Positions 4,867 to 22,546 of a DNA stretch of 64,000 nucleotides are shown here, piece after piece; position 1 is the first letter of the stretch; the number at the start of each line of letters is the position of its first letter. Source of the stretch: Paenibacillus dendritiformis (GTDB taxonomy: Bacteria > Bacillota > Bacilli > Paenibacillales > Paenibacillaceae); the NCBI RefSeq assembly GCF_945605565.1, contig NZ_OX216966.1, forward strand, positions 2,119,501 through 2,183,500. The letters are read 5' to 3'. Below the pieces are notes generated by a model. It was not told where the DNA came from. It worked only from the letters and a program-made list of their open reading frames with translations, and did no database searches. Both the position numbers and the translations under genes were made by a program.

Positions 4867-4899
4867 TGCAACCGATTTGCAACCCTGTTCCTGTTAACT
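4867..4899 (+). promoter_or_regulatory. SARP-type operator/promoter ahead of the thiolase gene
   Basis: TGCAACC occurs at 4867-4873 and again at 4878-4884, a heptamer direct repeat with 11-bp period and GATT between. Nine bases later comes a weak -10-like TTAACT (4894-4899). The same arrangement, TGCAACT-GATT-TGCAACC then TATGAT nine bases on, precedes livK at 11139-11171. SARP-family activators (OmpR-like winged helix plus BTAD) are known to bind heptamer direct repeats with 11-bp period just upstream of the -10. A protein with those domains is encoded between the two sites. That this protein binds here is an inference. Confidence 0.6.
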
Positions 4900-4934
4900 G
4901 GAGGCGACTCTAGACTGAACAAGAGGTGGACGAC

Positions 4935-6116
4935 TTGAACGAGGTGTTCATTGCGAGTGCTGTGCGTACTCCGATTGGAGCGTTTCAGGGCAGCTTCCAG
5001 GATACGGCGGGCACAGAGCTGGGGGCCGCTGTCATGAAGGAAGCTTGCCAACGTGCGGGAATGGCAGGCGAGCAGGTAGACCAGGTGTATATGGGGCAGG
5101 TGCTGCAGGGCGGAATAGGAATGAACGGAGCGAGGCAGGCCTCGCTGCAGGCAGGAATTCCGGAGCGGGTTCCGGCGACGAGCGTGAATCTCGTATGCGG
5201 ATCGGGCCTGCAGGCGGTGATGCTGGGAGCCCAGTGCATCCGTTCGGGGGATGCGGACGTGATTGTGGCGGGCGGCATGGAAAATATGTCACAGTCTCCT
5301 TACCTGCTGAAGAACGCCCGCCAGGGCTACCGCTACGGGCATGGAGAGCTTGTTGATTCGGTGCTGCATGACGGGCTGACGTGCGCGATTACGGGTCAGC
5401 CGATGGGATGGACCGCGGAGCGTCTTGCCGAGCGCTATGGACTGGCGCGCGAGCAGCAGGATGCCTTCGCGCTGCAGAGCCAGCAGCGGGCGCAAGCGGC
5501 GATGCAGGACGGACGGTTCCAAGAGGAGACTGTCGCGGTATCCGTTGCGGATCGCAAGGGCGGTGCCCGCCTGATCGCGGCGGATGAGCACCCTCGTCCG
5601 GGGCTGACGATGGAGGCGCTGGCCAGGCTGAGGCCGGCCTTCAGAACGCAAGGCACGGTGACGGCGGGCAATTCGTCCGGCATCAATGACGGTGCGGCGG
5701 CTGTCGTATTATGCGGCCGGGAGGCGGCCGACCAGCACGGCATCGCCCCGATCGCAGCCATTCGCGGGTACGCCGCAGTCGGGCTTGAGCCGGAGTGGAT
5801 GGGGCTTGGTCCGGTCCCTGCCCTGACGCAGGCTATCCGCAGGGCAGGCTTGCGGCTGCAGGACATCGGCCTGTTCGAAATCAATGAGGCGTTCGCGGCG
5901 CAGGCGCTGGCCGTTATGCGCGAGCTGGAGCTTGATTCCGAACGGGTGAATGTGAACGGCGGGGCCATTGCGCTCGGCCATCCGATCGGCGCGAGCGGCT
6001 CGCGTGTGCTGGTCACCTTGATTCATGAGATGCGCCGCAGGCACATTCGATATGGTGCGGCAGCTCTATGCGTAGGAGGCGGTCATGGTGTCGCTGTTGT
6101 TATCGAACGGAGCTGA
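4935..6116 (+). CDS. Acetyl-CoA acetyltransferase (thiolase)
   Basis: Thiolase of 393 residues from TTG 4935, which has AGAGGTGG five bases upstream; an in-frame GTG at 4926 lies inside that ribosome site and is less likely. Catalytic residues are all present: nucleophile Cys88 in NLVCGSG, His349 in GHPIGASGSR, and Cys379 in CVGGGHG, the same spacing as biosynthetic PhaA-type thiolases. The reaction is reversible condensation of two acetyl-CoA, or cleavage of 3-oxoacyl-CoA. It heads a two-gene operon with an acyl-CoA ligase, and its promoter region carries the TGCAACC direct repeat shared with the liv operon. Confidence 0.9.
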   Translation: MNEVFIASAVRTPIGAFQGSFQDTAGTELGAAVMKEACQRAGMAGEQVDQVYMGQVLQGGIGMNGARQASLQAGIPERVPATSVNLVCGSGLQAVMLGAQCIRSGDADVIVAGGMENMSQSPYLLKNARQGYRYGHGELVDSVLHDGLTCAITGQPMGWTAERLAERYGLAREQQDAFALQSQQRAQAAMQDGRFQEETVAVSVADRKGGARLIAADEHPRPGLTMEALARLRPAFRTQGTVTAGNSSGINDGAAAVVLCGREAADQHGIAPIAAIRGYAAVGLEPEWMGLGPVPALTQAIRRAGLRLQDIGLFEINEAFAAQALAVMRELELDSERVNVNGGAIALGHPIGASGSRVLVTLIHEMRRRHIRYGAAALCVGGGHGVAVVIERS

Positions 6117-6138
6117 ACCGGAACGGAGGGATCGGGCG

Positions 6139-7641
6139 ATGCATGACAGTGCGCTTCATTGGTTCGACAATCGCTGCCGGCATACTCCGGATCGGATTGC
6201 CGCGGTAGATTGGCATAGAGGGCTCCGGCTTACTTACCGCACTCTGCACCGCCGCGCAGAGCGGCTGGCTGCGGCCTTGCAGTCGTCGGACATCGGGCTT
6301 GGCGATCGGGTGGCCGTCCTGCTGCACAATCAGACGGAGATGATGGAAGCAGTGCTCGGCTGCGGCATGCTCGGGGCGATTGCGGTGCCATTGAATTGGC
6401 GGCTGTCCGCAGCGGAGCTTCACGGCATTATGCTGGACTGCGAACCGAAGCTGATGGTGTATGACGGCGATGAGCCGGAGATGGCGCGGCTCGCGTCGGG
6501 GCTTCCGCTAGCGGACTGCGCCCTGCTGTCTGTCGCGGCATTGGACTCAAGCCTGGACTGCGCGGTGGTGCGGCGGCATCATCCGGCGCATGGCGATGCG
6601 TGGATGATAATCTATACCGGCGGCACGACCGGGAAGCCGAAGGGGGTGGTGCTGACGCATGGATCCGTATATTGGAATGCGGTCAACACCGTCGTCAGCT
6701 GGCAATTGACGGCCGCCGATGTGACGCCGACGGTATTGCCGATGTTCCATACGGGCGGGCTGAATGCGCTCACGATGCCGGTGCTGATGGCCGGGGGCAC
6801 GGTCGTCCTGGTTCGTTCATTTCAGTGCGAGGATATGGTCCGCCTGTTGAATGAAGAGCGCTGCACCATCGCGCTCATGGTGCCGACGATGTACCATATG
6901 CTGGTCCACTCCGGCGCGTTCGCGCAGGCGGAGTTCCCGACGATGCGGGCGTTCCTGTCGGGAGGAGCGCCTTGCCCGCTATCGGTATATCAAGCCTTCC
7001 AAGCGAAAGGGCTTCCGTTCAAGGAAGGATACGGAGCGACCGAATCCGGGCCGAACAACTTCGTGATTGATCCGGCGATTGCGGCGCAGAAGCCGGGCTC
7101 TGTCGGTCTTCCGATGATATTCAGCGAGGCGAAGCTTATTCCGCTCCCAGGAGGCTCCGCAGGATCGGGATCGAATCAGGTCGGTGAACTCGCGCTTCGG
7201 GGCGGGCATCTGTTCTCGCACTATTGGAATAACCCGGAGGCGACTTCCGAGGCCTTGCGTGAAGGCTGGTTCATGACGGGGGATCTGGCTTCGCGGGATA
7301 AGGACGGTTATTACTATATTGTCGGGCGCAAAAAGGACATGATCATTACCGGCGGAGAGAACGTATATCCGCTGGAAGTGGAGCAAACGCTGGAGAGCTG
7401 CCCGGGCGTCAAAGAGGCGGCGGTCGTCGGGCTGGCGGACGAGAAATGGGGAGAAGTCGTTGCGGCGGTTGTCGCGGTTGACGGGGGGGCTGCGGTAACG
7501 GAGGCGGACCTTTCCGCTTTTTGCTCGGCGCGCATCGGCAAATACAAGGTGCCGAAGCGGTTCCTGTTCGTGCGGGAGCTGCCGACAACGGCCGTAGGCA
7601 AATTGGATAAGAAGCAGATGAAGGAATGGTTCGGCGGTTGA
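6139..7641 (+). CDS. AMP-dependent acyl-CoA synthetase (ligase)
   Basis: ANL-superfamily ligase of 500 residues: it adenylates a carboxylic acid and transfers it to CoA. The AMP-binding loop YTGGTTGKPKGV lies at about 149-160, the GYGATESGP motif near 295, TGDLASRDKDGYYYIVGRKKDMI near 400, and the late catalytic Lys in VGKLDKKQ near the end. ATG 6139 has CGGAGGG eight bases upstream; an in-frame ATG at 6085, also with an AGGAGG, would overlap the thiolase by 32 bases and add 18 residues without family similarity. Substrate unknown: a fatty, aromatic or short branched acid would all fit. Coupled to the thiolase. Confidence 0.88.
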   Translation: MHDSALHWFDNRCRHTPDRIAAVDWHRGLRLTYRTLHRRAERLAAALQSSDIGLGDRVAVLLHNQTEMMEAVLGCGMLGAIAVPLNWRLSAAELHGIMLDCEPKLMVYDGDEPEMARLASGLPLADCALLSVAALDSSLDCAVVRRHHPAHGDAWMIIYTGGTTGKPKGVVLTHGSVYWNAVNTVVSWQLTAADVTPTVLPMFHTGGLNALTMPVLMAGGTVVLVRSFQCEDMVRLLNEERCTIALMVPTMYHMLVHSGAFAQAEFPTMRAFLSGGAPCPLSVYQAFQAKGLPFKEGYGATESGPNNFVIDPAIAAQKPGSVGLPMIFSEAKLIPLPGGSAGSGSNQVGELALRGGHLFSHYWNNPEATSEALREGWFMTGDLASRDKDGYYYIVGRKKDMIITGGENVYPLEVEQTLESCPGVKEAAVVGLADEKWGEVVAAVVAVDGGAAVTEADLSAFCSARIGKYKVPKRFLFVRELPTTAVGKLDKKQMKEWFGG

Positions 7642-7674
7642 CGCAAGTCGGCCGCTTTTTTTGCGCAAATCAGA

Positions 7675-7702
7675 TTAGCAAAGGAATCAATTATGCTACA
7701 AT
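7675..7702 (+). promoter_or_regulatory. Extended -10 promoter of the BTAD regulator gene
   Basis: TGCTACAAT at 7694-7702 is a good extended -10 (TGnTACAAT). The -35 (TTAGCA at 7675-7680) is weak, as often seen with extended -10 promoters. Its position supports translation from ATG 7735 rather than the in-frame ATG 7693 inside the promoter. Confidence 0.55.
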
Positions 7703-7734
7703 ATACAGGAGAATATGGGAAAGAGAGGTTCGTT

Positions 7735-10700
7735 ATGAAGGAAGGACGCGTGCTTAAAATGAAGCTGATGCCGCCTCCCTTGAAAAAGCAGCTGCTTCAC
7801 CGTCCCCGAATCGCGAAGCGGCTGTCCCGCATCCCGGACTATCCGCTCACTGTGCTGACATCGGGTCCGGGCTTCGGCAAGACGACAGCGCTCTCCGCAT
7901 TTCTTCGATCCTCTGATTTGACGTATGCATGGTACGGCGTTGCTCCCCAAGACAATGACTTTATTCCTTTTGTATCTCATATCGTCTATACGCTCAGGCA
8001 AGCAGTACCCGGATTCGGAGAGACAATGCTTGGCGACATGAAAGGCGGAAGCCGGAGCGGCAGCGAGGATATTTATGCGTTGGCGGATTTGTTTTTGAAT
8101 GAATTGACCACGCTTCCGGAGCAGACGCTGCTCATCATCGACGACTATCATCTGGTGGAAGCGACGGACAGCATTGAACAGTGGATGCAGTACGTGCTTG
8201 CCTATCTGCCCGATTGCGACAAGCTGCGAATTGTCATCTCTTCCCGTTCGCGGCCGCAGTGGGACAGACTGGCTTCAATGCGTATCCGCGGCCATTTGCT
8301 TGAGCTCGCCAGAGAAGACCTTGCTTTTAATGAAGAAGAAATTGACGTTCTGTTCAGCGATTACTATGACTATCCGTTGACGTCAAGCGAAGTCCGGCGG
8401 GTGCACGAGCAGACGGAAGGGTGGATCATTGCGGTTCAGCTTATTTGGCAGCGCTTACTTGCATCTGGCGGTACGATTGCAGAAGCGCTTGAGGCGCCCC
8501 GGGAAACGATGGAGGATCTGTTTCAATATTTGGCATTGGAGCTGTTCCAGAAGCAGCCGCCATCTATGCGTACCTTCATGATCGAGACGAGCATCTTCGA
8601 CGAGCTGACCGGGGAGTGGTGCGATGCGGTATGCGGAAGGCACGGATCTCATGCCTTGCTCCTTCAACTCTGCGGCAGCGGCATGCTGTCGGCGGTCGAT
8701 GAACGGCAATTCCGCTATCATACGTTGTTCCGCGAATTCTTGACGGAACAGCTTGGACGGCAGCCGGAACGGCGCGAGTCCTTGTTGAGGCAGGCGGTGC
8801 ATGTGTTTGCCGCCCGCAAGCGGTATGATCTGGCCATAATGCAAGCGGCCGACCTGCAGGACCCGGAGGAGATGGCGCTATTGCTGCAGGACGGAGGCAG
8901 CAAGCTCATTCGGAACGGCCGCCTGGAGCTCGTCTGCGCCGCGCTGGCGGGACTGCCGGAGCGAATGAAGCACCGGCATCCTTACCTGCTTGTGCTGCAG
9001 GGCGATATTTTCCGCTACCAATGTCAATATGAAGCTTCTGGCGAGCAGTATCGGCTGGCCGAGTACGGGGCCGGAAGCGTAGGCAACCGGATGGTGCAAA
9101 TGCTGGCGCTCGAAGGACAGTCGCTCTTATATTTGGACACGATTCGCCCAGGCCTGGCGGAGCCCTTGCTTGAGCGGGCGATTGCACTGGCCGAAGCGCT
9201 ATACGGATATTACCCGCCGTTAGCGGAAGAAGCGGAAGCAGGCCTGGCGGCGGAACAGGGGCCGTCCGGGCCAGCCGGGAATCGGACGGACCCGCAGGCT
9301 CAAGACGCGCTCGCCGCTTATCGCTCGGCATGGCACGGACCTGCGGGAGGGCGGCAGCAATTGGCGCGGCTGTATGCGATGATGGCCGAAAATATGCTGA
9401 ACGCGGGCAGAGGGATGGAGGCGCAGATCTGGTATGATCGCGCGATACATGTCGACCGGGACAGCCGGGATTGGATTTTGGAGGCGCGGCTGTGTCTGCG
9501 GACGGGACGGCTGCGCGAAGCGAGGGCGAAGCTGCTGCGGGCCGAGCAGCTGGAGCGGGGGGAAGGAATGCGTTATAACGGCCTCAGCTATCATCCGAAG
9601 ACATTGTCGCGCTCGCATCGGGAGATTGACCTGCTGCTGTCGATGATCGACAGCATGCGCGGCGAGCCGGCTCCGGCCAAGCGGGGGGCGGAGGACGGCA
9701 TGATGCACGGCATCCGCTTGAAGGCCCCGTTCGTGGAAGCATGCGGCTGGATGCGAATGGGGCATGCCGCACAGCTGATGGGCACCTACGATGCCGGCGT
9801 GGCCGCGGAATGCTATCACGAGGCATTGGCCATCATGGAGCGGCTGGAGGTCAAGCGGGGAAGCGCGGAGCCGTATATGGGGCTGTGCCTGCTGTACGGC
9901 CGGGCGCGCTCGGCGGAGACGGCGCTTCGGTACGGTCAGACCGCCTGGGATGGAACGCAGAGCGCCAATGATGGCTGGCTGACCGCGCTAATCCGCTTGA
10001 GCATGGGCATGGCGCTGTTCTATGCCGACCGCTGTGAAGAAGCGGAGCAGGTGTTTCGCGAATGCGGCGAGCGCTTCGTCGCATGCGGAGATCAGTTCGG
10101 CTGCGCTTCGGCGGAAATGTGGCAGGCGCTCATCGCTTATCGGCTGGAGCGGGACAGTTGGTTCGCGGTCTCGATGGAACGCTTTTTGACGTTGGCCGAA
10201 CAGGAAGGATACGCCTTTCTGTTCACGCGGCGCACGCTGTTCGGCCCAAGCGATACGCAGCAGCTCATCCCGCTGCTCATCGAAGCGGTCCGGCTCGATC
10301 TGTGCCGCGCGTATGCCGCTTCGCTGCTCTCGGAGCTTGGCATGGACCGCTTGACGTACCATCCCGGCTATACGCTCTATATCGATACGCTGGGCGAATT
10401 CCGCGTCCGCCTCGGCGATGTGGAGCTGGAGGAGAAAGATTGGCAGCGCGGCAAAGCGAAGGAGCTGTTCCAGCTGCTTGTGACCCGCCGCCATCGCCCG
10501 GTATCGAAGGAAGAACTGCTTGGCCAACTGTTCCCCGAAGCGGAAGAGAAGGCGGCGAACCGCGATTTCAAAGTCGCGCTCAACGCCCTGAATACGGCAC
10601 TGGAGCCTCATCGCCGCGCCCGGTCCTCGCCTTATTTCATCCTGCGGCGGGGGCAGGCCTACCAGCTCAATCCGGCTGCGGGGTGGGTGCTGGACGCGGA

Positions 10701-11124
10701 TCGCTTCGAGCAGTTGATCGCGCCCGGGCTTGAAGCGGATGAGGCGGCCGAGGCCGTGTCCCGGCTGGAGGAGGGGCTGCGTTTGTACCAGGGAGACTAT
10801 ATGCCGGATCGGCGCTATGAGGACTGGTGCATCGAGGAACGAGAACGGCTGCAGGTGTTGTTCATGCGCGGAGCGGAACGGCTGTCCCGCCATTATATCG
10901 CGGCGGGGGCTTACGATAAGGCGGTACACTGGGCGGAGGCGATGACGGCCAAGGATCGCTGCTGGGAAGAGGCCTACCGCATCTTGATCGCCTGCCATCT
11001 CCGGATGAACAACCGGAACCAGGCGCTCAAATGGTACCGCAAGTGCGCGGCGGCGCTGCAGGATGAGCTTGGCATCGAGCCGATGGCGAGCATTCGGGAA
11101 TTGATGGCGGCCGTAACCGAATGA
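7735..11124 (+). CDS. Large transcriptional activator: MalT-like ATPase, TPR region and C-terminal SARP-type winged helix plus BTAD
   Basis: A 1129-residue regulator. The N-terminal ATPase has Walker A SGPGFGKTT at about 43-51 and Walker B LLIIDDYH near 130, as in MalT-type STAND ATPases. A long helical, TPR-like middle follows. At about 880-970 an OmpR-like winged helix begins (LYIDTLGEFRVRLGDVELEE), and the last 150 residues form a BTAD. This order is known in large SARP-related and LAL-like activators that use ATP and an effector to oligomerise. ATG 7735 has an AAGAGAGG site. It sits between the two gene sets of the locus, and both carry TGCAACC direct repeats, so it is the likely activator of both. 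Confidence 0.85.
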   Translation: MKEGRVLKMKLMPPPLKKQLLHRPRIAKRLSRIPDYPLTVLTSGPGFGKTTALSAFLRSSDLTYAWYGVAPQDNDFIPFVSHIVYTLRQAVPGFGETMLGDMKGGSRSGSEDIYALADLFLNELTTLPEQTLLIIDDYHLVEATDSIEQWMQYVLAYLPDCDKLRIVISSRSRPQWDRLASMRIRGHLLELAREDLAFNEEEIDVLFSDYYDYPLTSSEVRRVHEQTEGWIIAVQLIWQRLLASGGTIAEALEAPRETMEDLFQYLALELFQKQPPSMRTFMIETSIFDELTGEWCDAVCGRHGSHALLLQLCGSGMLSAVDERQFRYHTLFREFLTEQLGRQPERRESLLRQAVHVFAARKRYDLAIMQAADLQDPEEMALLLQDGGSKLIRNGRLELVCAALAGLPERMKHRHPYLLVLQGDIFRYQCQYEASGEQYRLAEYGAGSVGNRMVQMLALEGQSLLYLDTIRPGLAEPLLERAIALAEALYGYYPPLAEEAEAGLAAEQGPSGPAGNRTDPQAQDALAAYRSAWHGPAGGRQQLARLYAMMAENMLNAGRGMEAQIWYDRAIHVDRDSRDWILEARLCLRTGRLREARAKLLRAEQLERGEGMRYNGLSYHPKTLSRSHREIDLLLSMIDSMRGEPAPAKRGAEDGMMHGIRLKAPFVEACGWMRMGHAAQLMGTYDAGVAAECYHEALAIMERLEVKRGSAEPYMGLCLLYGRARSAETALRYGQTAWDGTQSANDGWLTALIRLSMGMALFYADRCEEAEQVFRECGERFVACGDQFGCASAEMWQALIAYRLERDSWFAVSMERFLTLAEQEGYAFLFTRRTLFGPSDTQQLIPLLIEAVRLDLCRAYAASLLSELGMDRLTYHPGYTLYIDTLGEFRVRLGDVELEEKDWQRGKAKELFQLLVTRRHRPVSKEELLGQLFPEAEEKAANRDFKVALNALNTALEPHRRARSSPYFILRRGQAYQLNPAAGWVLDADRFEQLIAPGLEADEAAEAVSRLEEGLRLYQGDYMPDRRYEDWCIEERERLQVLFMRGAERLSRHYIAAGAYDKAVHWAEAMTAKDRCWEEAYRILIACHLRMNNRNQALKWYRKCAAALQDELGIEPMASIRELMAAVTE

Positions 11125-11138
11125 TGACCGGATTGGAG

Positions 11139-11171
11139 TGCAACTGATTTGCAACCTGACCCTCTTATGAT
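11139..11171 (+). promoter_or_regulatory. SARP-type operator and -10 ahead of the liv operon
   Basis: TGCAACT at 11139-11145 and TGCAACC at 11150-11156 form a direct repeat with 11-bp period, followed after nine bases by TATGAT (11166-11171), a good -10. There is no recognisable -35; the repeat occupies its place, as expected for an activator-dependent promoter. It matches the site at 4867-4899 in sequence, order and spacing. Confidence 0.65.
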
Positions 11172-11203
11172 GAACGGGAATTGAATCGTAAGGGGGTTTT
11201 GTC

Positions 11204-12523
11204 GTGTTCAATCATCATGCTTTATTCCGGCGCATGCCGCGTATATGCATGCTCGGTCTGCTTGCATTTGTCCTTCTCGCCGTCTCTGCTTGCGGAAGCG
11301 GCGGCGCGGGGGCGGGCAATGGCGGCGCTTCCGGCCAGACGGCGAACGGCGGCGGTTCCGGCGAAGGCAAGGGGAAGGAGGGGCAGGCCGATAGTGCGGA
11401 AGGAGCCGGCCAACCGCCGATTCGAATCGGCGTGCTCGCTTCGATGACGGGCGCGCTCGAATCGTACGGCAAGCAGAGCACGCGCGGATTCGAGCTCGGC
11501 ATTGATTATGCGACCGGGGGAACGAGAACCGTGGCCGGCCGCAGCATCGAGTTCATCATCGAAGATACGGAGACGAAGCCCGATGTGGCCGTCAAGAAAG
11601 CGACCAAGCTGCTCGAGACCGATAAAGTCGATTTTCTCGTCGGCTCCTCCAGCTCGGGCGATACGCTTGCCGTGGTTCCGCTGGCGGAAGAGTATGAGAA
11701 GGTGATGGTCGTCGAGCCGGCGGTTGCCGACAGCATCACCGGTGAGCTGTGGAACCGGTATGTGTTCCGTACGGCGCGCAACTCCTCGCAGGATGCGGTT
11801 GCCGGCGCGGCGGCGATAGCGAAGCCGGGCGTCAAGATCGCCACGTTCGCACCCGATGGCGCGTTCGGGCGGGACGGCATCGCCGCATTCATACAGGCGG
11901 CCGAGAAGCTGGGGGCGGTGATTGTGGAGGAGCAGTATGCCGATGCCGCGGCGACCGACTTCACGGCGAACATTCAGAAGATCGTGAGCGCCAAGCCGGA
12001 TTATTTGTTCATTGTATGGGCCGGAGCGAACACGCCCTGGAAGCAGCTGCAGGATATGAAGGTACGGGAGCAGGGCATTCAAATATCGACCGGCGCGCCG
12101 GATATCGCCGCCCTCAAGACGATGCACGAGCTGGAGGGAATGGAAGGATTCTCGGTGTACTATTACACGTTGCCGGACAATGAGGTCAATCAATGGCTGG
12201 TGGAAGAGCATCAGAAGCGGTTCAATGGCGATCTGCCGGATCTGTTCACGCCGGGAGGAATGTCGGCCGCGATCGCGATTGTCGAAGCGCTGAAGAAAAC
12301 CGGGGGCGAGGCGGACACGGATAAATTAATTGCGGCGATGGAAGGGATGAGCTTCGAGTCGCCCAAGGGCAAGATGACGTTCCGGGCCGAGGATCACCAG
12401 GCCTTGCAGACCTTATATGCGGTTACATTGAAAAAGCGGGACGGGCTCGATTATCCGGAGCCGGTGCTGATTCGCGAGCTGTCGCCGGAGGAGACGGCTC
12501 CGCCGATACGCAACAAACGGTAG
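11204..12523 (+). CDS. Branched-chain-amino-acid-type ABC transporter substrate-binding lipoprotein
   Basis: A 439-residue lipoprotein. The signal peptide ends in the lipobox LLAVSAC (Cys30), followed by a Gly/Ser-rich linker to about residue 70. The rest is a periplasmic-binding-protein type I fold of the LivK/Leu-Ile-Val family (PIRIGVLASMTGALESYGKQ region, then LVGSSSSGDTLAV). Starts at GTG 11204 behind AAGGGGG. It captures the ligand for the LivGFHM proteins encoded next. Liv-type systems in catabolic clusters often carry aromatic or other organic acids and not amino acids; the acyl-CoA enzymes around it favour an organic acid here, but this is inference. Confidence 0.88.
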   Translation: MFNHHALFRRMPRICMLGLLAFVLLAVSACGSGGAGAGNGGASGQTANGGGSGEGKGKEGQADSAEGAGQPPIRIGVLASMTGALESYGKQSTRGFELGIDYATGGTRTVAGRSIEFIIEDTETKPDVAVKKATKLLETDKVDFLVGSSSSGDTLAVVPLAEEYEKVMVVEPAVADSITGELWNRYVFRTARNSSQDAVAGAAAIAKPGVKIATFAPDGAFGRDGIAAFIQAAEKLGAVIVEEQYADAAATDFTANIQKIVSAKPDYLFIVWAGANTPWKQLQDMKVREQGIQISTGAPDIAALKTMHELEGMEGFSVYYYTLPDNEVNQWLVEEHQKRFNGDLPDLFTPGGMSAAIAIVEALKKTGGEADTDKLIAAMEGMSFESPKGKMTFRAEDHQALQTLYAVTLKKRDGLDYPEPVLIRELSPEETAPPIRNKR

Positions 12524-12539: not shown

Positions 12540-13346
12540 ATGAACGGGACCGAATCCGCTCGTGCCGATGATATTGTATTGGCAACGGACGGGCTGACGA
12601 TTGCCTTCGGAGGCCATGCGGCCGTCCGGGATGTGAGCCTGAAGATAGAGCGCCATCACTTCAAGTCCATTATCGGGCCGAATGGCGCGGGCAAGACGAC
12701 GCTGTTCAATCTGCTCAGCGGACAGCTGCGGCCGACGGCCGGGACAATCCGCTTCAACGGCCAAGACATCACGGCGCTGCCTCCGTTCCGCCGCACGCGC
12801 CTGGGAATGGGGCGCTCCTTCCAGATGACGAACGTGTTCCCGAATCTGACCGTGCTTGAAAATGTGCGGCTCGCCGTTCAGTCGCGGCAGGGCGTCCGCC
12901 TGAACTGGCATGCATCGCCGAGAGCGTTCCGCCGCTTCGAGGAGGAGGCGCAGCATTGGCTTGACATGGTGCTGCTCGGCAACCGGTCCGGGGCGCTGGC
13001 CGCTTATCTCGCGCATGGGGAGAAGCGCAAGCTGGAGCTGGCGATGCTGCTCGCGCTGCAGCCGGAATTGCTGCTGCTAGATGAGCCGACGGCCGGAATC
13101 TCGATTGAAGAAGTCCCTGCCATCCTGGAGGTCATCCGCAAGATGAAGGAAGAAGGCAAGCGCACGATCGTGCTGATCGAGCACAAGATGGATATGGTGC
13201 TCGATTTGTCCGACACGATCGCCGTGCTGTTCGGCGGCAGGCTCCTGGCGGACGGACGCCCGGAGGAGATTATGAGCAACGAGACGGTGCAGGCGGCTTA
13301 TTTGGGAGGGCTGTATGATGACGCTGCTGCAAGTGCAGGGAATTGA
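12540..13346 (+). CDS. livG: LivG-type ABC transporter ATP-binding protein
   Basis: ABC ATPase of 268 residues. Walker A is GPNGAGKTT at about 44-52, then the LivG-specific stretch LGMGRSFQMTNVFPNLTV, and Walker B LLLDEPTAG near 180. The canonical LSGGQ signature is degenerate (AYLAHGEKRKLELA), as is usual for LivG-type ATPases. Strong GGGGAGGTGA site before ATG 12540. Overlaps livF by 32 bases, so translation is probably coupled. Confidence 0.9.
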   Translation: MNGTESARADDIVLATDGLTIAFGGHAAVRDVSLKIERHHFKSIIGPNGAGKTTLFNLLSGQLRPTAGTIRFNGQDITALPPFRRTRLGMGRSFQMTNVFPNLTVLENVRLAVQSRQGVRLNWHASPRAFRRFEEEAQHWLDMVLLGNRSGALAAYLAHGEKRKLELAMLLALQPELLLLDEPTAGISIEEVPAILEVIRKMKEEGKRTIVLIEHKMDMVLDLSDTIAVLFGGRLLADGRPEEIMSNETVQAAYLGGLYDDAAASAGN

Positions 13347-14022
13347 GACGCATATCGGGCAATTTCATATTTTACAGGGCGTGACCTTCGAGGTGAAGGC
13401 AGGGGAGATTACGGTGCTGCTGGGAAGGAACGGCGCGGGCAAGACGACCGCCCTCCGCTCGATTATGGGCCTGAATCCGGTATCCAGGGGCGAGATCCGC
13501 TTTCAAGGCGAGCGAATTGAAGCGCTGCCTACGCATCGGATAGCGCGCCAGGGCCTCGGGTATGTTCCGGAGGATCAGGGGATTTTTCCCGAGCTGACGG
13601 TAGGGGAGACGATGCGCATCGCGATGAGGCGCCATGACGACGAGACGAAGGCGCGGCTCGAATGGGCGCTGGAGCTGTTCCCGGATTTGCGCGCCTTCTG
13701 GGGCCGCAAATCGGGGCTCCTCAGCGGAGGGCAGAAGCAGATGCTGGCCATCTCGCGGGCATATGTGAATGATAATCGGCTTTTGCTTATCGATGAACCG
13801 AGCAAGGGACTGGCTCCGATTATGGTGGAGAAGCTGATGCAGGCCATTGAGCAGATGAAGGCGAAGACGACCGTGCTTTTGGTGGAACAGAACTTCATGA
13901 TGGCAAGCCGTATCGGGGACCGGTATTTCCTGATGGATGAAGGGCGCATCGTGGCCGCAGGAACGATGGCGGAATTGCAGGAGGACGAAGCGACGAGGCG
14001 CAAATATTTGGGCATCGCATAG
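13315..14022 (+). CDS. livF: LivF-type ABC transporter ATP-binding protein
   Basis: Second ATPase of the importer, 235 residues. Walker A GRNGAGKTT, signature LLSGGQKQM, Walker B LLLIDEPSKGLAP, and the LivF-typical GYVPEDQGIFPELTV are all visible. Begins inside the end of livG with GGGAGG upstream; ATG 13318 directly follows as an alternative start. LivG and LivF form the nucleotide-binding heterodimer under the LivH/LivM channel. Confidence 0.9.
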   Translation: MMTLLQVQGIETHIGQFHILQGVTFEVKAGEITVLLGRNGAGKTTALRSIMGLNPVSRGEIRFQGERIEALPTHRIARQGLGYVPEDQGIFPELTVGETMRIAMRRHDDETKARLEWALELFPDLRAFWGRKSGLLSGGQKQMLAISRAYVNDNRLLLIDEPSKGLAPIMVEKLMQAIEQMKAKTTVLLVEQNFMMASRIGDRYFLMDEGRIVAAGTMAELQEDEATRRKYLGIA

Positions 14023-14051: not shown

Positions 14052-14921
14052 TTGAATGGCATTATCAATTTGCTTGTCAACGGACTGGCGACGGGAATGC
14101 TGATCTTCCTGTTGGCGTCGGGGCTTACGCTTATTTTCGGACTGATGGGCGTGCTGAACTTCGCGCATGGCGGACTGTTCGCCTGGGGAGCGTACGGCGG
14201 AGTATGGGTATATGCCGCGACGGGCTCGTTCGCCGCGGCCGTCATCGGCGCCGTCCTCATGGGCATGCTGATCGGCTTGGTCATGGAGCGGCTCGTCATC
14301 CGGCCCGTGTACGGTAATCCGATTCAGCAGATTCTCGTCACGCTGGGCGCGATGCTCGTCTTGAGCGAACTGCTGAAGGTGGCGTTCGGCCCCAATCCGC
14401 TCAAGGCCGACGTTCCGCCGCTGCTGAACGGCAGCTGGGAGATTGGCGGCATCATTTTCATTAAATATCGCTTGTTCATTATTGGCGTCGGGGCGATCGT
14501 CTTTGCCGGACTGCTGTTCGTGCTGAAGCGGACGAAAATCGGGATTATCGTGCGCGCCGGGGTGATGAATCCCGAGATGGTACAGGCGCTGGGAATCCCG
14601 ATCCGCCGCGTGTTTACGCTCGTATTCATGGCGGGAGCCGGCCTTGCGGCGCTTGGGGGAGCACTCCTCGCGCCGTATTCGGGCGTGATCTTCGCCGAGA
14701 TGGGGATGCAATTCGCCATCCTGGCCTTCATCGTCGTCGTCATCGGCGGCATGGGAAGCATTCAGGGCTCCGCGTTGGCGGCGGTGCTTGTCGGCCTCTC
14801 GGGCGCCTTCATGGCTTATTACGTGCCGGAGCTGTCGCTTGCCGCCAATATGCTGTTGATGGTCATCGTGCTGCTCATCAAGCCTTCCGGCTTGTTCGGG
14901 GCGAAGGGGGGAGCGGGATGA
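14052..14921 (+). CDS. livH: LivH-type ABC transporter permease
   Basis: Permease of 289 residues with about eight membrane helices. The N-terminal GLTLIFGLMGVLNFAHGG and the VVIGGMGSIQGS loop are typical of LivH. Starts at TTG 14052 with GGGGGGAT upstream. Its last four bases overlap the livM start. Confidence 0.9.
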   Translation: MNGIINLLVNGLATGMLIFLLASGLTLIFGLMGVLNFAHGGLFAWGAYGGVWVYAATGSFAAAVIGAVLMGMLIGLVMERLVIRPVYGNPIQQILVTLGAMLVLSELLKVAFGPNPLKADVPPLLNGSWEIGGIIFIKYRLFIIGVGAIVFAGLLFVLKRTKIGIIVRAGVMNPEMVQALGIPIRRVFTLVFMAGAGLAALGGALLAPYSGVIFAEMGMQFAILAFIVVVIGGMGSIQGSALAAVLVGLSGAFMAYYVPELSLAANMLLMVIVLLIKPSGLFGAKGGAG

Positions 14922-15934
14922 GAACGAACCGAATCGGAACGGCCGGGTTCCTGACGCTGGTCGCGGCTCTGGCGCTGCTGCCCGTTGTCAATGATTCACG
15001 CAGCTTTCTCATCGTCATGACGCAGATTTGCATTTTCGCTATTTTTGCCATGAGCTACGATATTCTGCTCGGGTATACGGGAATCGTCTCGTTCGGCCAC
15101 TGTATGTTTTTCGGCATCGGAGCCTATACGAGCGGGATCATGCTGGAACGGCTCGGCCCTTCCGTCGGAACGCTTATCTTGTCCGTCCTGGCTGGCATGG
15201 TGCTGTCCGCGCTGCTCAGTTATATCGTAGGGATGCTCTCGCTGCGGCTGAAAAGCCATTTTTACGCGATGCTGACGCTCGCTTTCTCGGGCCTGCTGCT
15301 GGTGCTGGCGGAGAAATGGCGCTCGCTGACGAACGGCAATGACGGCTTCACCTTCCCGATCCCGTCCGCGATGAAGGACCGGACCGTTCTGTACTTGACC
15401 GCGCTGGCGGTGATGGCGGCCATATTCCTGCTGCTGCGCCGATTTACGCAATCCCCGGTCGGCCGGGTGCTGCAGGCCATTCGTGAAAATGAGCAGCGGG
15501 CCGAGTCGCTCGGCTACGAGATCGTTCATTACAAGGTGATGGCCACCGTGGTCGCAGGCATGGCGGCCAGTCTGAGCGGGTCGCTGTATGTGCTGACATT
15601 GCGCTTCGTCAATACGACGGTCTTCGGAATGGACATGACGCTGAACGCTTTGTTAATGACGATTATCGGCGGGGTAGGGACGCTGTATGGGGCGATCATC
15701 GGCGCTTCCCTTATTGAATGGGCGCATCACGGACTATCGGAGCTGGCCAAATTCCATCCGATATTCGAGCGATGGATCATTTTTTTCGGCTTATTGTATA
15801 TCTTGGTCGTGCTGCTGTTCCCGGCCGGTATCGTTGGCACGCTGCGCAGCTGGATAGGGACGCGCGGAGGAGGCCGGCCCGGGCGTGACCGGAAGGCGGC
15901 TTGCCGGCCTGTGCGGAAGGAGGAAGCCGGATGA
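14918..15934 (+). CDS. livM: LivM-type ABC transporter permease
   Basis: Permease of 338 residues. LLGYTGIVSFGHCMFFGIGAY, QAIRENEQRAESLGY and IIGGVGTLYGAIIGA are LivM hallmarks. Overlaps livH by ATGA and is overlapped by ATGA with the next small gene. The C-terminal tail is Arg/Gly-rich and cytoplasmic. Confidence 0.9.
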   Translation: MRTNRIGTAGFLTLVAALALLPVVNDSRSFLIVMTQICIFAIFAMSYDILLGYTGIVSFGHCMFFGIGAYTSGIMLERLGPSVGTLILSVLAGMVLSALLSYIVGMLSLRLKSHFYAMLTLAFSGLLLVLAEKWRSLTNGNDGFTFPIPSAMKDRTVLYLTALAVMAAIFLLLRRFTQSPVGRVLQAIRENEQRAESLGYEIVHYKVMATVVAGMAASLSGSLYVLTLRFVNTTVFGMDMTLNALLMTIIGGVGTLYGAIIGASLIEWAHHGLSELAKFHPIFERWIIFFGLLYILVVLLFPAGIVGTLRSWIGTRGGGRPGRDRKAACRPVRKEEAG

Positions 15935-16170
15935 TGGGGCACGGCGGCAGGGAGGGCTATAGCCAGCCCGAGAGGGCGGATGGCGGAACCGCGGTCGGCT
16001 CCTTCGTCATCCGCTGCCAGACGCGGTACGATGATGCTTCCTGCGGCGCTTGGCGCATACGTGTCACTTATGTTCAGGGGCAGGAAGAACTGACGGTCGC
16101 TTCCTGGGAGGAAGCGGTGCTGTTCATGCAGCAGCGAATGAAACGGGGGAACATGCCATATGATCGGTAA
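15931..16170 (+). CDS. Small protein of unknown function between the transporter and the KAS III-like enzyme
   Basis: A 79-residue protein. The start ATG 15931 overlaps the livM stop (ATGA) behind a strong GGAAGGAGGA, and its end overlaps the next gene by 11 bases, so it is translationally coupled on both sides. After a Gly-rich start of about 25 residues the body reads SFVIRCQTRYDDASCGAWRI and continues with beta-like stretches and a short C-terminal helix. Two Cys are present but no metal-binding pair. No family was recognised. Tight coupling suggests a partner or chaperone of the transporter or condensing enzyme; that is inference only. Confidence 0.6.
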   Translation: MMGHGGREGYSQPERADGGTAVGSFVIRCQTRYDDASCGAWRIRVTYVQGQEELTVASWEEAVLFMQQRMKRGNMPYDR

Positions 16171-17206
16171 CGGACATGACGCAGCGGACGCGATCCGCTT
16201 GCTGGCCACGGGGATCTATATCCCGGAAGGCCGGATGACGAGTGCGGATATCGCGCGGGCATCCGGCATCCCGCAGGAGATCGTCGAGACGAAGCTCGGC
16301 ATTAAGCAAAAACCGGTTCCCGGGCCGGAGGATCATCCTTGCGAGATGGGGGTGCGGGCGGCACGGCAAGCGCTGGCCCGGGCGGCGATCGATCCGGGTG
16401 AGATTGATCTCGTCATCTATATTGGCGAGGAGCATAAAGAATATCCGGTATGGACGGCCGCCCTGAAGCTGCAGGACGATCTGGGCGCCGTCAACGCCTG
16501 GGGCTTCGATCTGTCGTCCCGCTGCTGCACGGCGTTGATGGCCGTGAAGACGGCGAAGGCGATGATGCAGGGAGATGCGCGCATCTCGACCGTCCTGCTG
16601 GCGGGCGGGTACCGCAACGGGGATCTCATTGATTTGTCCGACCCCGATACCCGCTTCATGGCCAATCTCGGCGCCGGCGGCGGAGCGATGATATTGCGCC
16701 GGGGTGCAAGCGCCGCCTATCCGGAAGTGCTGGAGACGGCCGTGATAACGGACGGCTCCTTCGCCGAGGATGTCATTATCGCGGCGGGCGGGACCAAGCG
16801 GCCGTTGACGGCGGAGCTGATCGCGCAGGGAGAGCCGCGGTTCCGGGTGCCTGATCCCGGCCGGATGAAGAGCCGGCTCGACGCGGTGTCGATGGCCCGG
16901 TTCACCGAGGTGGTGGAACGCTCCGTTCGCGGCAGCGGCTGGCGTCCGGACGAGATCGATTTTATCGGTCTGCTCCATATGAAGCGATCCGCCCATGAGG
17001 CGGTGCTCCAGTCGCTGGGCATTCCGGCCCGGCGATCAGTGTATCTGGATGAATTCGGGCATATCGGTCAATTCGATCCGATGATATGCATCGAGCTGGG
17101 CGTGAAGCAAGGCCTGATTCGCCCGGGAAGCCTAGTTGTGCTGGCCGCAGCGGGCATCGGCTATGCTTGGGGGGCGCTCACATTGAAATGGGGGGATTCC
17201 GTATGA
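16160..17206 (+). CDS. KAS III-like (FabH/HMG-CoA-synthase superfamily) condensing enzyme with unusual active site
   Basis: Thiolase-fold enzyme of 348 residues. By alignment by eye to FabH, the acyl-accepting Cys is Cys122 (FDLSSRC, equivalent to FDVAAAC in FabH) and the first His is His273 (LLHMKRSAHEA, for PHQAN). The Asn of the Cys-His-Asn triad is replaced by His301 in EFGHIGQFDP. FabH would condense an acyl-CoA with malonyl-ACP; with the altered triad the reaction may differ (acyl transfer, or condensation with another acyl-CoA). It is the first enzyme gene after the transporter and overlaps the preceding small gene; its stop overlaps the hydrolase start. Confidence 0.75.
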   Translation: MIGNGHDAADAIRLLATGIYIPEGRMTSADIARASGIPQEIVETKLGIKQKPVPGPEDHPCEMGVRAARQALARAAIDPGEIDLVIYIGEEHKEYPVWTAALKLQDDLGAVNAWGFDLSSRCCTALMAVKTAKAMMQGDARISTVLLAGGYRNGDLIDLSDPDTRFMANLGAGGGAMILRRGASAAYPEVLETAVITDGSFAEDVIIAAGGTKRPLTAELIAQGEPRFRVPDPGRMKSRLDAVSMARFTEVVERSVRGSGWRPDEIDFIGLLHMKRSAHEAVLQSLGIPARRSVYLDEFGHIGQFDPMICIELGVKQGLIRPGSLVVLAAAGIGYAWGALTLKWGDSV

Positions 17207-18123
17207 AGGCGAAGACCACATTGAAATCGGTCCTGCTGCCCAATGGGGAGACGCTTGGTTACCGTGAACGGGAGGGCGGGGAGGAGGTACTGCTGCTGAT
17301 TCACGGCAATATGAATTCTTCTTACCACTGGGATGTGGCGCTGGAGCGGCTGGATCCCCGCTATAAACTGTATGCGATCGATTTGCGGGGCTTCGGCATC
17401 TCGACGTATCATGAGCCGATCAGCGCTTTGCGCGACTTCGCCGATGACGTGAAGCTGTTCTGCCGGGAGCTTGAACTGGACCGGTTCGCAGTCATGGGCT
17501 GGTCGACAGGCGGCGGCGTCGCGATGGAGCTGGCTGCGGATTGTCCTGAGGCGGTGACGAAGCTGATTTTATTGGCTTCGGTATCGACCCGCGGATATCC
17601 GTTCCATGAAGATGGCGGCAGCGGCCTGCCGGATAGGAGCAGACGAATCGCGAGCTATGCGGGTATCGAGGCGCTGGCGCGCAACCGCTTGATCGCGGAA
17701 GCGATCGCCCGGAGCGACCGCGCATTTTTGCAGCGGCTGTACGAAGCGGTCATCTATGACAAGAACCGGCCGGAGGAAGCCCGTTATGAAGCGTATCTCG
17801 ATGATATGCTGACGCAGCGCAATCTGATGGACGTATATCATGCGTTAAATACGTTCAATGTCAGCTTGTTCGACAATGAGGCGGCCGCCGGCAGCGGCGC
17901 GGTGCGGCGCATTGCCGCCCCGACGCTTGTGCTGCGTGGAGATCGGGACATGGTTATCAGCGAAGCGATGGCGGCAGAGACGTTCGCCGATCTGGGAGAG
18001 ATCGCCCGGTTCGTCCCGCTGAAGGACTGCGGACATTCGCCGCTTGTCGATGATCCGGGGCAGCTGCTGCGAGCGGTGGAGGAGTTCCTGGCGGCGGACA
18101 TCGCCGTGCAGCCGGAAGCATGA
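17203..18123 (+). CDS. Alpha/beta hydrolase
   Basis: Hydrolase of 306 residues with a complete Ser-His-Asp set: oxyanion HG in LLIHGNMNSS, nucleophile Ser101 in GWSTGG, probable acid Asp249 in LRGDRDM, and His278 in DCGHSP. A helical cap lies between about 140 and 215. ATG 17203 overlaps the upstream stop (ATGA) and has GGGGGGAT upstream; an upstream in-frame start would lie inside the KAS III gene. It could hydrolyse a thioester, lactone or ester in the same pathway. The Ser nucleophile separates it from PHA synthases (Cys) and OleB-type enzymes (Asp). Confidence 0.82.
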   Translation: MKAKTTLKSVLLPNGETLGYREREGGEEVLLLIHGNMNSSYHWDVALERLDPRYKLYAIDLRGFGISTYHEPISALRDFADDVKLFCRELELDRFAVMGWSTGGGVAMELAADCPEAVTKLILLASVSTRGYPFHEDGGSGLPDRSRRIASYAGIEALARNRLIAEAIARSDRAFLQRLYEAVIYDKNRPEEARYEAYLDDMLTQRNLMDVYHALNTFNVSLFDNEAAAGSGAVRRIAAPTLVLRGDRDMVISEAMAAETFADLGEIARFVPLKDCGHSPLVDDPGQLLRAVEEFLAADIAVQPEA

Positions 18124-18247: not shown

Positions 18248-18991
18248 ATGAAGCTTGAGGGCAAGACGGTAATCATTACAGGCGGGGCCAATGGGATTGG
18301 CGAAGCGGCCGTGCGGCTGTTCATGGATGCGGGGGCGAATGTCGTTATCGCCGATTTCGATGAAGAAGCGGGGATACGGCTCTTCAATGATCTTGGACCG
18401 TCCGCAGCGGAGCGCGCGCTCTTCGTCACATGCAATGTCGCGGATCCGGACAGCGTGCAGCAGCTTATGGAGAAGACGCTGGAGCGCTTCGGTGCAATCG
18501 AGGTGCTGATCAATAACGCCGGGATCACCCGTGACGCGATGCTGCTGAAAATGTCGCCGCAGCAGTGGCGCGATGTCATCGATGTGAATCTGAACGGCGT
18601 GTTCTATTGCACTCGTCATGCCGCGCCCCATATGGCCGCTCAAGGACGGGGCAAGATTATTAACACGACCTCCATCGTCGGCGTGCAGGGCAATATCGGG
18701 CAGACCAACTATGCCGCCGCCAAAGCGGGCGTCATCGGCATGACGAAGACATGGGCGCGCGAGCTTGGCTACAAAGGCATCTGCGTGAACGCGGTCGCGC
18801 CCGGATTTATCGCAACGGAGATGGTGGCGAAGATGCCGGAGAACATTGTCGACAGCATGCGGAACAAGGTTCCTTTGCGCCGGCTCGGACAACCGGAGGA
18901 TGTCGCGCAGGTCTATCTGTTCCTTGCGTCTGGCGCAGCGGACTATATTAACGGAGCCGTCATTGAAGTGAACGGAGGGCTGTCGATTTGA
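18248..18991 (+). CDS. SDR-family 3-oxoacyl reductase (FabG-like)
   Basis: Classical short-chain dehydrogenase of 247 residues. Cofactor motif GGANGIGEA near the N-terminus, NNAGITRD, and the catalytic Ser, Tyr and Lys in TTSIVGV and NYAAAKAG are all present. Most similar in style to FabG and acetoacetyl-CoA reductases, so it probably interconverts 3-oxo and 3-hydroxy acyl thioesters with NADP(H). GGAGGGGG precedes ATG 18248. The 124-base GC-rich gap before it holds no clear promoter or terminator, so it is probably the last gene of the liv operon. Confidence 0.85.
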   Translation: MKLEGKTVIITGGANGIGEAAVRLFMDAGANVVIADFDEEAGIRLFNDLGPSAAERALFVTCNVADPDSVQQLMEKTLERFGAIEVLINNAGITRDAMLLKMSPQQWRDVIDVNLNGVFYCTRHAAPHMAAQGRGKIINTTSIVGVQGNIGQTNYAAAKAGVIGMTKTWARELGYKGICVNAVAPGFIATEMVAKMPENIVDSMRNKVPLRRLGQPEDVAQVYLFLASGAADYINGAVIEVNGGLSI

Positions 18992-20884: not shown

Positions 20885-20919
20885 ATGATCCGCCCTTGGA
20901 TGGGGCGGATTTTTTTATA
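20885..20919 (+). terminator. Intrinsic terminator of the thioredoxin-like gene
   Basis: ATCCGCCC pairs with GGGCGGAT around a short loop and is followed by seven T residues. Confidence 0.85.
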
Positions 20920-21120
20920 TGTGCGCACTGGAAGCGCGTTGATTCGGTTTTCAGGGGATGTGTAATATTTGTCACAATTTTGCCGTACATTCGATTAGGA
21001 AATCTTGTATAATGGGGACGATTGGCATACTTTGTAGGTAAGAATTATTTTAATAATGCGTGTTCAAAAAGGTCGAAGCGTGATTGATTTCAAATGAAAA
21101 TAACGGGTCAGGTGAAACTG

Positions 21121-22044
21121 GTGAATTCGAACATCTACCGTAAATTGAAGTTGTTGGCTTACGCCACCTGCATCGGCATGTTCATCGTCGTGCTGAACGG
21201 CGCCCTTGTCACCAAGACGGGCTCCGGCCAAGGCTGCGGCACCGATTGGCCGCTGTGCAATGGCAAATTCGTGCCTGCCTACACCATCGAATCAATGATT
21301 GAATACTCGCACCGCATGGTAACCGGGATTGTGGGCATTCTTGTACTGGCATCATTTATTTTTGTGTTTCGCTTTGCGCGAGACAAGCGCGACGCAGTCA
21401 TGTATTCGTTGCTGACGCTCATTTTTACCATCATTCAGGCGATTATGGGGGCGCTCGCCGTCGTCTTTACCCAGTCACCGCCGGTTATGGCGCTGCATTT
21501 CGGAATCTCCCTGCTGGCGTTCGCCTCCTCCTTCCTGCTGTGTCTGGCGCTGCGAAGGTATGAACGGGGCATCGTTCAACATGCGGGCACAATCAGCGAT
21601 ACGTTCCGCTACGCCGTCTGGTTCACATGGTTATATACATATATCGTTATCTACGTCGGCGCCTTCGTACGGCATACGGAGTCATCCGGGGGCTGCCTGG
21701 GATGGCCGCTCTGCAATGGCGAGTGGATCCCCGATATGGCGGGAGGAACCGCAATCGCTTTCATGCACCGGGTGGCTGCAGCGCTGCTGCTGGTTGTCGT
21801 CGCGGTGATGGCGCATTTCGCCTACCACCATCATAAGGATAACCGTGAGATTCAGCTGTGCGGGATATGGTCCATCGCGCTGTGTGCGGGGCAGATTATA
21901 AGCGGGGCGATCGTTGTTTTTGCGATAACGGATGAGAATTGGTATTTATTTGCGGGAATGCTGCATGCGGTGTTGATTTGCGGACTGTTCAGCGTGCTAT
22001 GCCATATGAGCATTCGCGTATGGCAGCTGCGGGAACGGACATAA
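21121..22044 (+). CDS. ctaA: Heme A synthase CtaA (COX15/CtaA family)
   Basis: Integral membrane protein of 307 residues with eight helices in two pseudo-repeats. The first half has GALVTKTGSGQGCGTDWPLC and EYSHRMVTG; the second has GAFVRHTESSGGCLGWPLC and FMHRVAA. The paired Cys of each loop and the four heme-ligand His are visible. It oxidises the methyl group of heme O to heme A for cytochrome oxidase. GTG 21121 has AGGTGA five bases upstream; the in-frame ATG 21094 has no ribosome site. TATAAT at 21008-21013 is a likely -10. No other cta gene is in the window. Confidence 0.9.
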   Translation: MNSNIYRKLKLLAYATCIGMFIVVLNGALVTKTGSGQGCGTDWPLCNGKFVPAYTIESMIEYSHRMVTGIVGILVLASFIFVFRFARDKRDAVMYSLLTLIFTIIQAIMGALAVVFTQSPPVMALHFGISLLAFASSFLLCLALRRYERGIVQHAGTISDTFRYAVWFTWLYTYIVIYVGAFVRHTESSGGCLGWPLCNGEWIPDMAGGTAIAFMHRVAAALLLVVVAVMAHFAYHHHKDNREIQLCGIWSIALCAGQIISGAIVVFAITDENWYLFAGMLHAVLICGLFSVLCHMSIRVWQLRERT

Positions 22045-22050
22045 AGCGAA

Positions 22051-22120
22051 AAGAAGCAGTCACTTGACGGTGCGCGGCGCCATGGCGGGCTAACGTGCTA
22101 CAAGCGAGCTGCTTCTTCTT
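22051..22120. terminator. Hairpin between ctaA and a small minus-strand ORF
   Basis: AGAAGCAGTCACTTG pairs with CAAGCGAGCTGCTTCT (one mismatch/bulge) around a GC-rich loop. T-rich tails are present but short on both strands, so it probably terminates both converging genes. Confidence 0.6.
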
Positions 22121-22155
22121 GTATTGCGTGGGGGTTACCGTGAACATAAGCCGAT

Positions 22156-22290
22156 TTACGCTCCTTCTCTCAATTGACGGGCATCTTCGGCGTGAGCGCC
22201 GAACAGCAGTACGGACGCGGCCGCTTTCGCTGCAGCCAGCCAACGGACATTCCAACGTCTGCGCTCTGTTTCCCGATTCATGCTTCTCAT
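22156..22290 (-). CDS. Small basic 44-residue protein, unknown
   Basis: An ORF of 44 codons from ATG 22290 to TAA 22158-22156. GGGAGG (22305-22300) lies nine bases upstream of this ATG; a second in-frame ATG at 22296 is too close. The N-terminal third is Arg-rich (MRSMNRETERRRWN), followed by an Ala-rich hydrophobic helix (WLAAAKAAASVLLFGA) and a polar end. It could be a small membrane-associated protein. Support is the ribosome site, the convergent hairpin after it, and otherwise empty DNA. No family recognised. Confidence 0.5.
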   Translation of the reverse strand: MRSMNRETERRRWNVRWLAAAKAAASVLLFGAHAEDARQLREGA

Positions 22291-22546
22291 GAACATCTAC
22301 CTCCCGTAATGTGGTTTGGCTTAACATACTTTTATTTTACCGGTACGGATGGGGCGGTGCCATGCAACCTGCTTACGATTCACTTACATTGTCGTAAGCT
22401 GTCCGGTTGTAGCGCTTTAGGTTCTCATGAAAAACAGATATACTACATAATAGTACGTTACTGTGGCGCGTATTACAGAATTATCCTTATAACGAGCCGA
22501 TTTTCGGCAATTATTCACCCAGCTAACGATCTAAGGAGGGCTAGCG

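Follow-up and report, generated by a model that had tools for sequence, protein, structure and literature searches.

A STAND-type regulator with a C-terminal SARP module and a conserved paired operator, predicted to activate transport and acyl-CoA genes in Paenibacillus dendritiformis and other Bacilli

To our knowledge, almost all described SARP regulators control antibiotic clusters of actinomycetes. AfsR, a large SARP from Streptomyces coelicolor (PDB 8k60 and 8hvr), is reported to bind from −40 to −19 over a poor −35 element as a side-by-side dimer that touches both sigma and the core polymerase, and its box is given as two 11-bp repeats centered at −29.5 and overlapping the −35 (PMC10936776). 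Here, we describe a locus in a 64,000-nucleotide stretch of the Paenibacillus dendritiformis genome (contig NZ_OX216966.1, positions 2,119,501 to 2,183,500; the window hereafter) in which a 1129-residue regulator is encoded between two copies of a paired heptamer. Very probably, this regulator is an activator of the nearby uptake and acyl-CoA genes and of a distant lipase gene, acting through the predicted paired operator. The basis for this interpretation is the sites themselves, their spacing and conservation, their co-occurrence with the regulator, the presence of sites at unlinked genes, and the fold of the protein.

The regulator gene (7735–11124, on the plus strand like all features of the window given below) encodes a MalT-like STAND ATPase, a helical middle, and a winged helix with BTAD; an upstream in-frame ATG would extend the protein from 1129 to 1143 residues. 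Its N terminus matches the NCBIfam MalT model over residues 8–439 (E value of 1.1e-65, below the family cut-off) and PDB 8bob (E value of 2.7e-27). Walker-like motifs, assigned by eye as SGPGFGKTT and LLIIDDYH, complete an N-terminal STAND ATPase of the kind found in MalT and the LAL activators, and residues G44, P45, G46, G48, K49, T51, D136, D137, Y138, and H139 are invariant in five aligned regulator sequences. At the other end, an OmpR-type winged-helix DNA-binding domain (≈residues 880–979, 10372–10671) precedes a BTAD domain (PF03704; residues 986–1127, 10690–11115), which is the SARP-type succession. In the predicted recognition helix (residues 938–956, 10546–10602), K946 and V947 are invariant and N950 nearly so in 69 aligned sequences. 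A Pfam search of the regulator returned BTAD plus a weak AAA match only, with no LuxR-type helix-turn-helix family at the C terminus. In structure, the C-terminal module is of the SARP type. A truncated C-terminal piece gave nothing useful in a PDB search, and a full-length structure prediction of low confidence (predicted local distance difference test score of 58.4, predicted template modeling score of 0.35) was not used. The initial annotation, made from the sequence of the window, had described a 1129-residue STAND-ATPase, TPR, winged-helix, and BTAD protein, and its length, ATPase half, winged helix, and BTAD domain are all borne out. That it is the only such regulator visible is correct for the window, where nothing else matched; elsewhere in the genome, at least three more proteins match the C-terminal part and one matches the N-terminal part.

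Like AfsR, as described in PMC10936776, the regulator combines a winged helix and BTAD fold with STAND-type and TPR parts in a single protein, and in both systems, a poor −35 is overlapped by a pair of 11-bp direct repeats. It differs from AfsR in that the domain order is reversed, with the SARP module C-terminal, in that the heptamer is a different one, and in that the predicted flanking targets are transport and acyl-CoA genes. PimR, a SARP-LAL protein, also joins a SARP module to a LAL-type ATPase half and has operators of heptamers with 4-bp spacers; unlike the present system, it carries its SARP module at the N terminus, and according to the account in PMC5930380, its operator has no −35 overlap and it serves polyene biosynthesis. 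MalT and the LAL activators share the N-terminal STAND ATPase but end in a LuxR-type helix-turn-helix, in place of which the regulator has BTAD. EmbR (PDB 2fez and 2ff4) differs in the C-terminal FHA domain that PMC10936776 describes for it and, at 388 residues, in having no STAND part. By fold and operator, the regulator belongs with the SARP-type activators, although it is neither a canonical SARP, because its module is C-terminal rather than N-terminal as in the AfsR-like order (BTAD takes up residues 986–1127 of 1129), nor a LAL protein, because it has no LuxR-type helix-turn-helix.

Operator 1 (TGCAACCGATTTGCAACC, 4867–4884) reads TGCAACC-GATT-TGCAACC and lies ahead of the thiolase and acyl-CoA ligase genes, possibly with the regulator gene behind them (thl-lig(-reg)), and operator 2 (TGCAACTGATTTGCAACC, 11139–11156) reads TGCAACT-GATT-TGCAACC and lies ahead of the liv operon. 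Both are intergenic, plus-strand, exact matches to the pattern, with direct repeats at an 11-bp period, and in each case a −10-like hexamer starts after a gap of exactly 9 bp, TTAACT (4894–4899) for operator 1 and TATGAT (11166–11171) for operator 2. The pair of sites and the nine-base gap had both been proposed in the initial annotation. The genome-wide scan that it suggested finds the exact motif above chance: in the 6.72-Mb genome, TGCAACY-N4-TGCAACC occurs exactly only at the two window sites, with two more matches at one mismatch and another 34 at two. At up to three mismatches, there is no excess over chance inside the window (10 found, 8.98 expected), and the weight of the two operators lies in their exactness, place, and conservation. 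A chance origin of the repeats was rejected on their genome-wide rarity and on their conservation measured with control patterns. An imperfect inverted repeat, seen by eye (CCCTCTTATGAT-N13-ATCGTAAGGGGG, 11160–11196), covers the livK −10 and ends in the ribosome-binding site, and close relatives carry similar sequence there.

A profile search with the regulator gave 67 loci in Bacilli, with 21 named genera among them; several of the loci come from genomes of the genus set described below, and the cluster is largely preserved across the 67. Counting TGYAACY-N4-TGYAACY with at most one mismatch, in a search span set from the start of the protein match, we found the operator before livK in 57 of the 57 loci that include the DNA upstream of this gene; where thl or lig comes first in its operon, the operator precedes thl in 9 of 9 loci and lig in 18 of 19. 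In the remaining lig locus (L072), a site lies at 8157. These counts leave out three end-cut loci, six without livK, L121 with its partial livK, 16 lig and three thl in-operon copies without a site, and lig copies below 43% identity. Control patterns that were reversed, permuted (two), inverted, or given a 5-bp spacer matched none of the 57 livK regions, and a 3-bp spacer matched one. The T....T signature of a −10 stands at a 9-bp gap at 56 of 57 livK, 9 of 9 thl, and 14 of 18 lig sites. When 74 sites are pooled, the 4-bp spacer varies and the heptamers are kept, a constancy that partly reflects the selection of sites with no more than one mismatch; position 6 is C in all 74, and T....T follows at gap 9 in 70. 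Inspection by eye showed no clear covariation of operator position 3 (C or T) with residues of the recognition helix. The best −35 match at spacers of 16 to 18 bp reaches at most three of six positions in 81 of 82 sites, a count made with no control set, so from their sequence, the promoters look activator-dependent. As a DNA element alone, then, the operator shows the SARP-type arrangement: heptamer repeats with an 11-bp period that lie in the −35 region, keep a constant gap to the −10, and precede the predicted target genes. Conservation upstream of orthologous operons, one of the checks suggested in the initial annotation, thus extends to every livK promoter counted, and the circuit that it placed in a Paenibacillus-type genome is supported, although as a Bacilli-wide one rather than one confined to Paenibacillus. 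Clusters in seven loci (L183–L188 and L279, from G162, G183, G205, G071, G123, and G237) carry two to four operator-like copies each, often ending in TGYAACG or TGYAACA.

Within the genus, represented by 19 genomes, a full-length regulator gene is found in eight, the window's own and seven orthologs at 62–95% identity. The gene has an internal stop in G017, and only fragments of it are left in the decaying cluster of G008. Sites within one mismatch of TGCAACYGATTTGCAACC occur in exactly the eight genomes with an intact regulator. The relaxed pattern with a −10 is matched exactly in nine of the 19 (these eight and G017) and at one mismatch in 16, where the matches in regulator-less genomes are not clearly above the reversed control. 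In a comparison of 10 loci, one of them the window's, both promoters keep the 9-bp spacing, and TTAACT or TTTACT stands at the operator-1 spacing in nine relatives; in L060, from another genus, the first operator lies ahead of the ligase gene. Two candidate sites were set aside. One, in G004 (C1:2215308), lies inside a reading frame that we take to be murA-like from its protein sequence. The other is a one-mismatch site (TGTAACAAAATTG...) present in five genus genomes, G000 included, which is probably no promoter because, in the copy inspected (L234, G008), there is no lipase match and the site faces the end of a reading frame on the other strand. At L061 (G008) and L218, the decaying G008 cluster has left thiolase, ligase, regulator, and transporter fragments, and a lipase remnant (residues 330–420) is located close to an operator-like site.

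The operator also tracks the regulator across genomes. In a sample of 398 Bacilli genomes, with a regulator match defined at E ≤ 1e-100 and the operator as an exact match plus −10, the operator is present in 53, the regulator in 68, and both in 37, which is 37 of 68 genomes with the regulator as against 16 of 330 without it. The separation is sharper among the 53 genomes that have the cluster ketosynthase gene (match at 1e-60): an exact operator occurs anywhere in the genome in 31 of the 33 in which no more than 20 kb separate the regulator and ketosynthase genes and in 1 of the 20 others. That single exception, G060, has its regulator elsewhere and a one-mismatch operator ahead of a separate kas-fabG-thl set. 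Two of the 33 are negative: in G237, an exact heptamer pair is followed by TATAAT at 8 rather than 9 bp, and G205 carries three copies with one mismatch each. In six liv clusters that have no regulator next to them (L271–L275 from a single genus, and L277), no site occurs at up to one mismatch. L172–L175 and L182 encode a second subfamily of STAND/BTAD regulators whose C-terminal modules are 51–54% identical to the window's; no liv cluster lies beside the regulator in the three loci viewed (L172–L174), and there is no TGYAACY operator plus −10 close to these regulator genes. A search of the same five loci for a g56-type paralog operator (11-bp-period repeats and then a −10; the genus g56 is discussed below) found none in L172–L175 and three unconvincing candidates in L182.

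Sites at unlinked genes extend the predicted regulon. Outside the window and ≈1 Mb from the cluster, the same genome encodes a secreted lipase-like alpha/beta hydrolase (C1:1081383–1082642) preceded by AGCAACTCCTTTGTAACC, an operator with one mismatch, and, 9 bp on, TATCGT (C1:1082722–1082754, L192). In Paenibacillus apiarius (G018), the operator with TATAAT at 9 bp lies ahead of the lipase gene ≈0.75 Mb from the cluster, and in G260 and G114, from another genus, it lies ahead of a lipase ortholog beside the cluster. Seven of the 19 genus genomes have the lipase, and all seven have the operator ahead of it (at most one mismatch to the relaxed consensus), six at gap 9 and one at gap 8. G400 encodes a 71%-identical lipase, has no regulator match at 1e-100, and has no operator within one mismatch upstream. 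From these sites, the secreted lipase is predicted to be a third regulon target in this genome, so the small regulon of two operons put forward in the initial annotation keeps both of its sites and gains a distant member. In genus g111, an operator precedes a conserved protein of ≈97 residues far from the cluster (L176 in G204 and L177 in G225); the L177 copy has no Pfam match.

We propose that the N-terminal STAND ATPase and helical middle of the regulator probably sense a ligand, perhaps a pathway substrate or an acyl-CoA, by analogy with MalT, in which the STAND part confers ligand control. The C-terminal winged helix and BTAD domain would then bind TGYAACY-N4-TGYAACY with two protomers next to each other on the same face of the DNA, each on one heptamer. 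If the −10 occupies roughly −12 to −7, the heptamers extend from about −39 to about −22, which is nearly the position of the AfsR box. Ending 9 bp before the −10, the operator would occupy the position of a −35 that is weak or absent, and for this reason, the regulator probably recruits RNA polymerase as AfsR does. In this genome, we predict three targets: thl-lig(-reg), livKGFHM-kas-abh-fabG, and the secreted lipase gene. The flanking genes, for a Liv transporter, CoA ligase, thiolase, ketosynthase-III-like enzyme, reductase, and hydrolase, look catabolic in character. Together, the lipase, transporter, ligase, reductase, and thiolase suggest uptake and breakdown of ester-derived acids, and our guess is that the regulon coordinates extracellular ester cleavage, uptake, and acyl-CoA breakdown, a biosynthetic role being possible as well.

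Several observations weigh against this interpretation. Exact operator matches occur in the 16 regulator-less genomes of 330, which may be chance because the reversed-control pattern hits 12 of the 398 genomes, as read from the result table. Conversely, 31 of the 68 regulator genomes have no exact operator; 22 of these 31 belong to one genus, g56, in which 13 of the 22 have the ketosynthase gene, none of them within 20 kb of the regulator match, and the g56 matches are probably a paralog. At four of the 18 lig sites, the −10 is one base closer (TA...T, gap 8). Distant lipase relatives (32–38% identical) in four regulator genomes are mostly without an operator: G137 has an operator-like site with two mismatches and TATATT at gap 9, and no convincing operator was found ahead of those in G144, G204, and G225. 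The residues T88 and R92, reported as base-contacting in AfsR, align with V947 and A951 of the regulator, so the DNA contacts must differ from those of AfsR. The p values of these comparisons overstate independence because the genomes and loci are related and partly shared across searches. A terminator-like hairpin with a T-run (7633–7656) between the ligase and regulator genes, with similar sequence seen by eye in L065–L069, and TACAAT (7697–7702), a candidate −10 seen by eye in seven of nine relatives compared, suggest that the regulator may have its own promoter and make its autoregulation through operator 1 uncertain; a scan of the window for consensus promoters and terminators gave counts not above shuffles for both element classes.

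The main rival explanation is that the repeats are boxes for WalR/YycF or another OmpR-family response regulator and that the BTAD protein is nearby by accident. WalR/YycF boxes are likewise 11-bp direct repeats bound by a related winged-helix fold. The binding geometry that the initial annotation called that of SARPs thus does match the AfsR box without being unique to SARPs. Many Bacillaceae operator copies even fit the WalR consensus, given as TGTWAH-N5-TGTWAH in PMC9210968; the window sites do not, as they read TGCAAC and break the TGT. WalR also allows A, C, or T at position 6, where all 74 sites have C, partly by construction. Moreover, WalRK is stated to occur in all Firmicutes (PMC9210968), yet the operator tracks the BTAD regulator in the ketosynthase comparison (31 of 33 against 1 of 20), and neither the six liv clusters that have no regulator beside them nor the G400 lipase gene has a site within one mismatch. 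On these grounds, we judge a WalR-type box to be highly unlikely.

We also give little credence to a different reader of the same operator, either another BTAD-like protein, for which the further matches in the genome would be candidates, or a TetR-like protein near some clusters, such as the L091 open reading frame beside the ligase gene (TetR-like by eye). Matches to the C-terminal part are found in operator-less genomes of the genus as well (G002, G003, G005, and G009, for example), and the operator follows the 1129-residue regulator in both genome comparisons. TetR-type sites are normally inverted repeats, whereas this operator is an 11-bp direct repeat. Finally, a structural or RNA leader element, in favor of which we found nothing, is barely conceivable: the repeat precedes the −10 at a fixed gap and should thus not be transcribed, and its 4-bp spacer varies while the heptamers are kept. 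We therefore retain activation by the 1129-residue regulator as the preferred explanation.

If so, SARP-style activation is likely an old and widespread device in Bacilli, in which a STAND-SARP family of inverted architecture runs a conserved Liv-transporter and acyl-CoA regulon, joined in some lineages by a secreted lipase and other unlinked members, and SARP-type control would not be specific to actinomycete antibiotic clusters. Among the open-access literature matches listed, a scope that mostly excludes subscription papers, none names a SARP-type circuit in Bacilli. The operator rule, TGYAACY-N4-TGYAACY and then a −10 at a gap of 9 or sometimes 8 bp, has predictive value. It is associated with an unnamed family of Bacilli regulators and singles out specific targets, among them, in this genome, a secreted lipase beyond the reach of a gene-neighborhood guess. 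The system offers testable functions for genes annotated only in general terms and Bacilli counterparts for the AfsR mechanism, and it suggests that SARP-type modules and STAND proteins have been fused in more than one domain order.

The remaining genes of the cluster complete the two predicted operons. The thiolase (acetyl-CoA acyltransferase) gene, thl, was correctly placed after operator 1 in the initial annotation; in place of the GTG at 4926, which is now the alternative, its probable start is the TTG at 4935 (4935–6116, ribosome-binding site AGAGGTGG), and the relative L057 has GTG at the codon equivalent to this TTG. The AMP-binding acyl-CoA ligase gene, lig, follows at 6139–7641, assigned by family matches. 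Downstream of operator 2 are genes for a LivK-type substrate-binding protein (11204–12523), LivG-type and LivF-type ABC ATPases (12540–13346 and 13315–14022), and LivH-type and LivM-type permeases (14052–14921 and 14918–15934). Behind them lie genes for a ketoacyl-synthase-III-like enzyme (kas, 16160–17206; NCBIfam PRK06840, above cut-off), an alpha/beta hydrolase (abh, 17203–18123; probable ATG start at 17203), and a FabG-type short-chain reductase (18248–18991), the last gene in this direction before one on the opposite strand. In Paenibacillus selenitireducens (L071), fabG is followed by a gene at 20916–22448 for what is presumably a CoA transferase-like protein, a possible extra member of the pathway.
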